Shown here: positions 22,347 through 24,991 of the stretch, piece after piece
How the letters are laid out: each line of letters opens with the position of its first letter
How positions within the stretch are numbered: the stretch's first letter is position 1
Assembly (NCBI GenBank): GCA_029571985.1
Contig: JAKQVC010000199.1
Span: 1 to 38,948, forward strand
DNA: 38,948 nucleotides
Source: Bacteroidota bacterium
GTDB taxonomy: Bacteria; Bacteroidota; Bacteroidia; Chitinophagales; BACL12
Reading direction: 5' to 3'
Translations under genes and position numbers: made by a program
Notes under the pieces: model-generated
The model's database searches: none
What the model saw: the letters and a program-made list of their open reading frames with translations, nothing else
What the model was told of the DNA's origin: nothing

Positions 22347-22435
22347 TGGATTAAATTGAGTTGTTTAATGAATTGTATGTTACCTGCGGGATTTTGAGAG
22401 AACACAGAAAGTGTTCAATACGTTCCCTGGGAAAG

Positions 22436-22517
22436 TGCGGGTGGAGGGACTCGAACCCCCATGCCTCGCGGCGCCAGATCCTAAGTCTGGTATGTCTACC
22501 AATTTCACCACACCCGC
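22436..22517 (-). tRNA. tRNA-Leu (anticodon UAG)
   Basis: 82 nt. The acceptor stem GCGGGTG pairs fully with CACCCGC and the discriminator is A; CCA is not encoded. The D-arm region contains AAATTGGTAGACA. The anticodon stem-loop ACCAGA-CTTAGGA-TCTGG gives loop CU-UAG-GA. A class II variable arm (GCGCCGCGAGGC) and the T-arm GGGGGTTCGAGTCCCTC follow. It reads CUN codons. Confidence 0.95.
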
Positions 22518-22545: not shown

Positions 22546-22574
22546 GTGGAATAATCGTAAAATGCCAATGGGGC

Positions 22575-22802
22575 GACGTGTCGACGTGCGGACGTGCGGA
22601 CGTGCGGACGTGCGGACGTGCGGAGGTGCGGACGTGCGGAGGTGTCGACGTGCCGACGTGTCGACGTGTCGACGTGTCGACGTGGAATGCAGTGCGGAGG
22701 TGTGGAGGTGCGGAGGTGCGGACGTGTCGACGTGCCGACGTGTCGATGTGTCGACGTGGAATGCAGTGCGGGCGTGCGGAGGCGCGGACGTGTCGACGTG
22801 GA
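22575..22802. repeat. 8-bp satellite array, GACGTG(CG/TC/CC)
   Basis: About 27 tandem or near-tandem units of GACGTGCG, GACGTGTC, GACGTGCC or GAGGTGCG over 228 bp. A higher-order element (GACGTGGAATGCAGTGCGG) appears at 22679 and 22753 and partly at 22795. Units of the TC type create GTCGAC palindromes. The array begins 30 bp behind the tRNA-Leu -7 element. Long frames through it on both strands are a by-product of the repeat. Confidence 0.9.
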
Positions 22803-22890
22803 ATGTAGGTTTGGAAGTTTGGTGATGTGGATGGCGGATTTGTGTGTGGGAGTTTTGGGGTGAGGGGTGAATGGTGTGTGTTGAGTGCAT
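22803..22890. other. G-rich spacer in the repeat island
   Basis: Low-complexity G/T-rich sequence joining the satellite to the 82-bp array. Contains GGGGTGAGGGGTGA (22857-22870), the perfect reverse complement of TCACCCCTCACCCC at 23580-23593. Confidence 0.6.
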
Positions 22891-23216
22891 GCATAATTTA
22901 AGGAGGGGCCTGCCCTGGAGTGAGGTTTTTCGGCGCGTAGCAGTGAAAAAGTTCTACTTCAGAGGGAGTGAATGCATAATTAAGGAGGGGCCTGCCCTGA
23001 AGTGAAGTTTTTCGGCGCGTGGCAGAGAAAAAGTTCTACTTCAGGGGGAGTGAATGCATAATAAATGAGGGGCCTGCCCTGAAGTGAAGTTTTCCGGCGC
23101 GTAGCAGTGAAAAAGTTCTACTTCAAGGCAAGTGAATGCATAATAAAGGAGGGGCCTGCCCTGAAGTGAAGTTTTTCGGCGCGTAGCAGAGGAAAAGTTC
23201 TACTTCAGGGGTAGTG
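22891..23216. repeat. Four tandem 82-bp hairpin-forming units
   Basis: Units begin at 22891, 22974, 23056 and 23138 (period 83, 82, 82) with GCATAAT. Each contains AGGGGCCTGCCCT and a long imperfect hairpin: 5' arm CCCTGAAGTGAAGTTTTTC, loop GGCGCGTAGCAGT, 3' arm GAAAAAGTTCTACTTCAGGG (18 pairs, one bulge, one mismatch). Differences between copies are few and several are wobble-tolerated (for example CCCTGGAGT in unit 1). No unique spacers separate the units. No coding frame is convincing. Confidence 0.9.
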
Positions 23217-23247: not shown

Positions 23248-23533
23248 GCGGGTCTGAGACCCGCGAGCTCGCGTGCTTTAGCGGGTCTCTGACCCGCGTG
23301 GGGGAGGCTGGTTTGTGGAAGAGGGCTGTCGGTTGCGTTGTTGCCTGGGCGGGTCTTTGACCCGCGTGGGTGCGGATTTATGGCTTCGTTGGGAAAGGGA
23401 TTCTTGTTTTTTTCAGATGGTGCACGGCGGGTCGGAGACCCTTGTTTGCTTCGTTACAGCTAGTTTCCTCCGAGCTGATGAAGCACCGCCGTTATTCCTT
23501 CGATTCAGCTGGTGCACGTCGGGTCAGAGACCC
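23248..23533. repeat. Five dispersed GGGTC-N3-GACCC palindromes
   Basis: GCGGGTC-TGA-GACCCGC (23248-23264), GCGGGTC-TCT-GACCCGC (23281-23297), GCGGGTC-TTT-GACCCGC (23349-23365), GGGTC-GGA-GACCC (23429-23441) and GGGTC-AGA-GACCC (23521-23533). The 3-nt loops vary while the stem is kept. The last two sit in a longer repeat that starts TGGTGCACG. The rest of the stretch to the GH gene is non-coding and ends in CTCACCCC-type simple repeats (about 23553-23598). Confidence 0.85.
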
Positions 23534-23593
23534 TCGTGAGCGTACTTTGTGTGACCACTCACTACTCACCCCTCACCACTCACCCCTCACCCC

Positions 23594-24991
23594 TCAACGC
23601 ACCTCCACTTCCACGTAGCCGAAAGAATAGGCCGGAATCGTGTTGTTGAAATCTGAACGGTTGATGCCTTTTACTTCATAGCTTTTTACACTGCCTTTAC
23701 CCATGTAGCCGGTTGTGCCACAGCCACTGTACAAGTGTTTGCCTGCTACGGCGTGTATTTTTATTGCGGCACCTGCAGGGATATGAAAATCGGCTGTATA
23801 TGCTTCACCGGTGTTCGTGAAGTAATATTTATAAGTGCCTTTTGCTGATTTGCTGAGGTTCGGAATGTTTTGTGCCGACATCGGTTTGGCATCGCGCGCT
23901 TCAGAGGCGAGCTTGTAGGCAAAATAACCCATCCGGCGTATCATCTCGTTTGGCTCTGAATCATATTTGTTGGATTTACTGATCATGCCATACTTGTCGG
24001 GACCAACACCATTATGAATGATGAGATACTCAGCCATTTTAGAAATTTCAATGAGCTGACTAAATTGCCATTGTCCATTCAAAATGGTGTTATTTAACAT
24101 CTCAGATGGCTTGGTATTCCATTCGGTTATCCAAATTTCTTTGCCCGGAAATTTTTGTTGCAGATAGCGACAGCCATCACCCAATAAATCATTCTCTTCG
24201 AGTAGCAGTGTGGCCGCCTTGTCATACGCCCTGCACAAATCATCGTTCGATTTTGCCGGATCAAATTCATTGCGCAACGGAATCATATCATAAGCCTCGC
24301 CCAACTCACGTGCCGTATAATAATAATGTGGAATGACAGCATCAAAATCACCTTTGTAACCGGCCATGGCATCATTCCATCGCACGATATCATTTCTGCC
24401 CAAATTCGCACCGACAATTAATCCCAATTTTATTTTCGGATATTCTTTTCTGATCATGGCGAATACCGGTTCAAAATCCGGGATGTATTCACTAAAGGAT
24501 GCATATTTTCCGTACACTTCATTACCGGCTTCCACACCCACAATATTTACACCATTGCTCATTAAATACCGGATGGCCTGCATATTGGCTTCAGGTGTGC
24601 TGTTGAGTACATTCAACACCCATAACACCTGCATATTTGGAAATTTTTTCTGCAGGGCAATCAAATCGTCGAGGTAACTATGTGCAGGTTGCTCTTCTGC
24701 TTTGCGTAACCATTTTTCCAGACCGTTGCCATCTTCATCAAATCCTGTGGTTTCGAACCATTGCTTGATATTAGACTCCGATAATCCCCAACCGCGCTTT
24801 ACATTATATGGGTCATGAAATTTAGAAATCGAACCTCCCGGAAAGCGGATCGTAAAAGGTGCATTCAAATCAACCAGATATTGCTCGACATCAGCATCGT
24901 AATTTTCGAACATGCCACTGCCATTAAAGCCAAGATTTTGTGCATGGACAACCTGCACACCAAGTAATATTATGAACAACAGCTTTCTCAT
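23594..24991 (-). CDS. Secreted glycoside hydrolase-like protein (TIM-barrel, clan GH-A type)
   Basis: 465 residues with a signal peptide (RKLLFIILLGVQVVHAQ, cleaved near residue 17). The barrel part has TIRFPGGSISKFHDPYN near the N-terminus, IVGVEAGNEVYGKY with Glu158 as probable acid/base (the NE motif after strand 4) and EIWITEWNT with Glu290 as probable nucleophile. About 100 C-terminal residues form a beta domain (YYFTNTGEAYTADFHIPAG, SFGYVEVEVR) as in GH39/GH51/GH79 enzymes. It probably removes sugars from a polysaccharide in the periplasm or outside. I cannot assign the CAZy family or substrate. No SusC/D pair is nearby. The repeat island lies directly after its stop. Confidence 0.7.
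   Translation of the reverse strand: MRKLLFIILLGVQVVHAQNLGFNGSGMFENYDADVEQYLVDLNAPFTIRFPGGSISKFHDPYNVKRGWGLSESNIKQWFETTGFDEDGNGLEKWLRKAEEQPAHSYLDDLIALQKKFPNMQVLWVLNVLNSTPEANMQAIRYLMSNGVNIVGVEAGNEVYGKYASFSEYIPDFEPVFAMIRKEYPKIKLGLIVGANLGRNDIVRWNDAMAGYKGDFDAVIPHYYYTARELGEAYDMIPLRNEFDPAKSNDDLCRAYDKAATLLLEENDLLGDGCRYLQQKFPGKEIWITEWNTKPSEMLNNTILNGQWQFSQLIEISKMAEYLIIHNGVGPDKYGMISKSNKYDSEPNEMIRRMGYFAYKLASEARDAKPMSAQNIPNLSKSAKGTYKYYFTNTGEAYTADFHIPAGAAIKIHAVAGKHLYSGCGTTGYMGKGSVKSYEVKGINRSDFNNTIPAYSFGYVEVEVR

Follow-up and report, generated by a model that had tools for sequence, protein, structure and literature searches.

Four nearly identical hairpin units follow one another in register between a tRNA-Leu gene and an ORF in the window, i.e., the whole stretch of 38,948 nucleotides that was analyzed, and the question is what kind of element they represent and how they came to be there. 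In this study, we propose that the units of the array are copies of a short hairpin element, interspersed in the genome, that probably works like a REP sequence, in the form of a folded single strand, most likely of DNA, which would be moved by an enzyme acting in trans, most likely of the HUH Y1 class.

The array and its hairpin unit

A reading of the window made earlier from the letters alone (the sequence-only reading) had described four tandem 82-bp hairpin units, and Tandem Repeats Finder (TRF) bears this out (4.1 copies, period 82, 90% matches; Table 1). The unit consists of a 59-nt imperfect hairpin and a 23-nt linker, and AGGGGCCTGCCCT is found in all four of them. Both neighbors of the array are encoded on the minus strand (tRNA-Leu at 22435-22517 and an ORF at 23594-24991), and the four hairpins are antisense to each. 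An Rfam search of the window returned the tRNA-Leu as its sole match and no family for the hairpin. The linker, GAGTGAATGCATAATTAAGGAGG, is similar to the left flanks of solo copies found elsewhere in the genome (contigs C23 and C125), and thus probably stems from the sequence flanking the founding copy.

Table 1. Coordinates of the array, its hairpin copies and the neighboring palindromes in the window.
Feature	Position	Strand	Details
Tandem array, 4.1 copies of 82-bp unit	22883..23216	+	TRF score 538; direct-repeat family D3
Hairpin copy 1, 5' head GGCCTG + imperfect hairpin	22907..22965	+	covariance model R1, 72.4 bits, E 7.9e-17
Hairpin copy 2	22989..23047	+	R1 83.2 bits, E 5.6e-20; RNA folding z -2.95
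Hairpin copy 3	23071..23129	+	R1 75.5 bits, E 9.6e-18
Hairpin copy 4	23153..23211	+	R1 85.0 bits, E 1.7e-20; RNA folding z -2.26
23-nt linker GAGTGAATGCATAATTAAGGAGG, copies 1/2	22966..22988	+	similar linkers 23048-23070, 23130-23152
Extrahelical T of copy 2, between distal stem and 9-bp basal stem (ACTTCAGGG arm)	23037	+	alignment A3 column 26
Five GGGTC-n-GACCC palindromes, separate neighboring repeat, outside the element	23248..23540	not assigned	type also around C35 Y1 gene

The 18-pair stem attributed to every unit is found as such in copies 2 and 4, where it comprises 9 bp, a bulged T, 3 bp, one G.G mismatch and 6 bp, whereas copies 1 and 3 depart from it by extra wobbles or mismatches. 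The changes had also been called wobble-compatible, which is accurate for copy 1 with its added G.T wobbles and wrong for copy 3, which carries true A.C mismatches. Nor is the loop strictly GGCGCGTAGCAGT as supposed; conservation is confined to the apex, GC-GNA-GC. The GNA recurs in 32 of 35 distinct 59-nt variants, and in one copy (contig C20, GTGTAAC) the closing pair has changed to T-A on both sides with the GNA kept. Loops of the GNA type are known to form exceptionally stable DNA mini-hairpins when two G-C pairs close them (PMC4686876). Folded as RNA, copies 1-4 give z-scores of -0.2, -3.0, -0.2 and -2.3, which are significant in copies 2 and 4 only. The folding of single copies is not decisive; what decides is the covariation over the dispersed copies.

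The intergenic surroundings of the array are themselves repetitive. Degenerate 8-bp tandem repeats (GTCGACGT / GTGCGGAC) adjoin the tRNA-Leu at 22574-22800, and tracts of such 8-mers recur in other intergenic regions of the genome, e.g., on contig C125. At 23554-23596 lies an (ACTCACC)n tract, made up of a 7-mer that also flanks numerous hairpin copies throughout the genome. Each hairpin subfamily seems to be bound to a short-repeat tract of its own.

Dispersal and selection on base pairing

With one 82-bp unit as query, 34 places were matched in the source genome (G000, 4.0 Mb). A covariance model (R1) built from 34 distinct copies of this genome gave 126 matches with both strands counted, which come down to about 78 copies, a few weak and degenerate ones included, in 39 clusters when only the better strand is kept. 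The genome-wide search that had been suggested for the unit thus reveals about 74 copies outside the array of the window. The clusters are distributed over many contigs, nearly all of them intergenic, as solo copies or tandems of up to six, and several copies are located at contig ends. Direct tandems prevail, and alternating orientation occurs mainly in contig C132. Subfamilies are embedded in their own short-repeat surroundings, made up of GGTGAGT, GGAATGA or GTAGTGA repeats.

The element extends beyond the source genome (all assemblies are drafts, and kinship is given as assigned by the genome database). A genome of the same genus (G001) carries 12 copies, among them five inverted doublets with a near-constant start-to-start spacing of 97-99 nt. 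Diverged copies, alike in their hairpin plan but with distal stems of about 4 to 25 bp that are unrelated to each other, are present in a genome from another family of the same order (G016) and in three genomes from another order of the same class (G645, G668, G747). A structural scan of 1.3 Mb, to be read as a check of specificity and not as an estimate of density since many of the contigs had been preselected for hairpins, yielded 16 matches against 0 in the reversed sequence. Searched order-wide, the sequence pattern TGAAGTG..CTACTTCA gave mostly chance matches outside G000, G001 and G016, as judged against control columns, and the hairpin had no match in plasmids. In viral contigs, one match to the head (L165) and two matches within phage coding sequence (L318, L319) were judged to be chance, and a phage link was rejected.

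The copies share one plan: an unpaired 5' head, a 9-bp basal stem (CCNTGAAGY / RCTTCANGG), an invariant G-C pair, an extrahelical T on the 3' arm and a distal stem that is free in sequence and length, giving elements of about 40-75 nt. The head RGCCTG is conserved in G000 and G001 and degenerate in other orders. As to the covariation analysis, which the sequence-only reading had also put forward, pairing proved to be conserved. Among the 34 distinct copies of the source genome, seven pairs show double changes (score 0.147 versus 0.083 when shuffled), and across 58 distinct copies from six genomes double changes occur in nine of 14 pairs, with 108 double-change cells versus 34 in shuffles and a score of 0.329 versus 0.111; in either alignment none of 500 shuffles reaches the score. 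In sliding controls, with the partner strand moved by 1-3 columns, covariation is far lower and the signal is lost. The scan that collected the 58 cores demanded most basal pairs, which inflates the percentage paired, but it left the extrahelical base free, and this base is T in 57 of the 58. In one whole subfamily both bases of the pair next to the bulge have changed, T-A having become C-G (AGTG..CTACT to AGCG..CTGCT).

Some copies in G016 (C21; L045, L233) and G645 (L200, L201, L203) accommodate a terminator-like hairpin or another insert of 50-75 nt in the distal stem, as if the basal clamp could hold variable cargo.

These data bear on three rival explanations. A plain local tandem duplication would account for four nearly identical copies in register; it is rejected, with a negligible residual probability, because about 74 further copies exist in the genome and the structure is conserved across orders. 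The outcome that had been named beforehand as refuting the hairpin family, i.e., a unit without other copies and without structural conservation, is excluded by the same dispersal and covariation. A role as RNA, be it as transcription terminator, mRNA-stability element or regulatory element in intergenic transcripts, would predict strong covariation just as well, and a terminator-like inner hairpin is indeed contained in three G645 copies and a classic terminator with a T-tract in one G016 copy. Yet, the common form in the source genome has no U-run after the hairpin as intrinsic terminators have at gene 3' ends, divergent and convergent gaps contain clusters about equally often, with codirectional gaps occupied as well and no obvious preference (approximate ORF calls), both neighbors of the array are encoded on the strand opposite to its four copies, and the GNA triloop is a fold favored by DNA. 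We therefore regard an RNA function as improbable; the GNA apex, the missing U-run and the lack of an obvious gap preference together favor a hairpin of single-stranded DNA. More improbable still is a function in double-stranded DNA, either as an inverted-repeat site for a dimeric host protein or as a MITE of a DDE transposase with terminal inverted repeats. The arms are inverted repeats and the copies are intergenic and clustered, but such a site would not be expected to undergo compensatory changes that preserve nothing but pairing, to keep a one-base asymmetry in 57 of 58 copies or to let its distal stem vary freely, and the sequences flanking the clusters show no visible target-site duplication.

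Y1 and GIY-YIG genes as candidate partners

For a folded single strand moved in trans, the partner would most likely be a Y1 transposase. RAYT genes are described as always flanked by two inverted REPs (Nunvar et al., PMC2817692). Genes with a Y1_Tnp domain (PF01797) number two in G000, five in G001, four in G016, three in G668 and one in G645. Their flanks (about 1.5 kb, or less near contig ends), checked by R1 and/or the structural scan, contain no 59-nt hairpin in these drafts, and the feature that defines RAYT genes is thus lacking in the available assemblies. The REP-associated tyrosine transposase for which the sequence-only reading had suggested a search is accordingly not found beside the hairpin in these hairpin-bearing genomes, though an unassembled contig could hold a hairpin-flanked Y1 gene, given draft assemblies with copies at contig ends.

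The two Y1 genes of the source genome have palindromes of other types around them. The gene at C181 (in locus L031, 45995-49339) is surrounded by at least eight GCCCC..GGGGCGAC palindromes; it bears the motif YIQNQEEHH and resembles subclass 1.2, which is listed as being without REPs (PMC6006769). The other gene, class-2-like, is located at C35:4531-4767 (L032) amid GGGTC..GACCC palindromes. The palindromes of this type next to the array (Table 1) look like a REP family with a RAYT in the same genome. Other palindromes again surround the Y1 genes of a further relative (G729).

A different candidate partner is a small GIY-YIG gene of the source genome (C132; about 100 aa, domain 57910-58119, minus strand), which lies between hairpin copies at 57676-57732 and 58302-58344, followed by a 213-bp tandem of [minus, plus] hairpin doublets. 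An all-against-all comparison of the ORFs near hairpins in all genomes recovered its homologue in G668 (C219), 58% identical and from a different order, which has hairpins on both sides too. The two loci have a hairpin subtype in common, GATCGAC-NNN-G(G)GAGATC, which is situated on the strand of the gene, about 100-150 nt upstream of it. With two loci that emerged from an open-ended search, this link is no more than suggestive.

It is conceivable, if on balance unlikely, that an element carrying a small standalone GIY-YIG nuclease has the hairpins as its ends or targets, with the nuclease recognizing or nicking the hairpin, and that the dispersed copies are gene-less derivatives of this element or, alternatively, that the nuclease gene parasitizes the hairpins by homing. 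The bracketing of the gene in two orders and the shared upstream subtype argue for such a relation, as does the observation that other small GIY-YIG genes of G000, G001 and G016, several of them adjacent to tRNA genes, have no hairpin within about 1.5 kb. However, a search over all neighboring ORFs is subject to a look-elsewhere effect, no such gene is found near the other clusters examined, the hairpin-bearing genomes G001 and G016 have no GIY-YIG gene of this kind, and the relative orientation of the bracketing hairpins is not the same in C132 and C219. A blind sample of further G668 and G645 contigs provided no second member of the subfamily, the protein had no match in plasmids, phages or viral contigs, and the literature search retrieved no paper naming both GIY-YIG and 'repetitive extragenic palindromic'. 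Somewhat more speculative is the extension of this idea to a mobile hairpin family of Bacteroidota-type bacteria whose partner would be the standalone nuclease of about 100 aa instead of an HUH Y1 enzyme; the nuclease would recognize the hairpin with its conserved extrahelical T, and the dispersed hairpins, the array of the window included, would be its gene-less offspring or target sites.

The tRNA-adjacent GIY-YIG genes were rejected as partner on account of their hairpin-free surroundings (about 1.5 kb). Small genes of this type directly adjoin tRNA genes at C50 (L169, L175, L180) and C110 (L178) of G000, at C85 of G001 (L167) and at C389 of G016 (L166). At C50, C85 and C389 duplicated tRNA fragments are found around the gene, which looks like a tRNA-targeting mobile GIY-YIG element.

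Relation to known hairpin families

REP sequences consist of a hairpin with a 5' guide at its foot and bulges (PMC6006769). The element described here matches the REP/REPIN/BIME systems with TnpA_REP (RAYT) of E. coli and Pseudomonas (PMC2817692, PMC3116915, PMC6006769) in being a dispersed, intergenic, multicopy imperfect hairpin with a bulge and complementary mutations, in the unpaired 5' head that is conserved at its foot and in occurring both in tandem and as inverted pairs, and the doublets of G001 have the fixed spacing seen in REPINs. It differs by its head, RGCCTG in place of GT[AG]G, by its greater length, by the free distal stem and by the lack of an adjacent Y1 gene. The resemblance to clustered REP/BIME elements noted in the sequence-only reading consequently extends to dispersal, intergenic sites, 5' head, covarying stems and inverted doublets, but not to a linked Y1 gene. 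High copy number and selection on pairing in a dispersed intergenic palindrome support an element that works like a REP; a RAYT-type REP is not supported because neither a GT[AG]G or CGTC head nor a linked Y1 gene is found.

REPs fall into GTAG and CGTC superfamilies, the latter without a dedicated transposase (Di Nocera et al., 2013, PMC3733652). The CGTC-tagged REPs are comparable in that they, too, are palindromes dispersed in the genome, carry a 5' tag and lack a dedicated transposase, but they differ in head, in the sequence of the 9-bp basal stem and in the extrahelical T, and the published families have stems of 8-9 bp with loops of 4-5 nt. In another genome (G006; L036, L039), CCGTC-headed hairpins with the apex GGAGCGAAGCGGA represent CGTC-type REPs that possess the same apical DNA mini-hairpin. 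The earlier statement that no Bacteroidota family with this sequence was known needs a caveat, as atypical non-GTAG palindromes have been reported beside the genes of TnpA_REP subclass 2.6 in Bacteroidetes (PMC6006769). Those palindromes are likewise without a GT[AG]G head and have copies elsewhere in the genome; they flank a Y1 gene, whereas the present hairpin is beside none in the genomes examined, a comparison made by description only.

Two further systems rely on folded strands. Integron attC sites are hairpins that are recognized as a folded strand, with extrahelical bases and a variable terminal structure. The present hairpin is similar in all three respects, but it lacks a GTT/AAC R-box and an unpaired central spacer, its copies are not separated by cassette genes, and instead of the attC boxes GTTRRRY / RYYYAAC its basal stem reads CCNTGAAGY / RCTTCANGG. 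In IS608, an unpaired T is a recognition feature. In the IS200/IS605 family, an HUH Y1 enzyme reads the subterminal hairpins in single-stranded form, and the guide is located immediately 5' of the hairpin foot (PMC6006769); this mode of recognition may apply here as well. In contrast to these insertion sequences, no transposase gene lies between the copies, the copies are far more numerous and the distal stem is not conserved.

Taking up our proposal of a REP-like element again, its functional form would be the folded single strand with head, basal stem, G-C pair, extrahelical T and free distal stem, topped in the source genome by the GC-GNA-GC apex. An enzyme supplied in trans, either a nuclease or a transposase, would read the head, the basal stem and the extrahelical T in single-stranded DNA, e.g., in the lagging-strand template, and copy or move the element into intergenic DNA. 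This enzyme would most likely belong to the HUH Y1 class (TnpA_REP/RAYT type) and may have been lost, lie in an unassembled gap or act from a distance. Neither an empty site nor a recent transposition event was seen. The four-unit array may have arisen when one inserted copy, together with its left flank, was amplified locally in tandem.

In summary, we file the element as a new REP-like hairpin family with a putative mobilizing enzyme, for which the GIY-YIG nuclease is a candidate; the family is set apart from the subclass 2.6 palindromes by description only. It adds to the REP-like elements a family with a class-wide signature composed of a basal stem, one unpaired T and a free distal stem, which has spread without any adjacent Y1 transposase being found. 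How REP families without a transposase, such as the CGTC type, multiply thereby becomes a testable question, with a defined hairpin and a candidate nuclease at hand.
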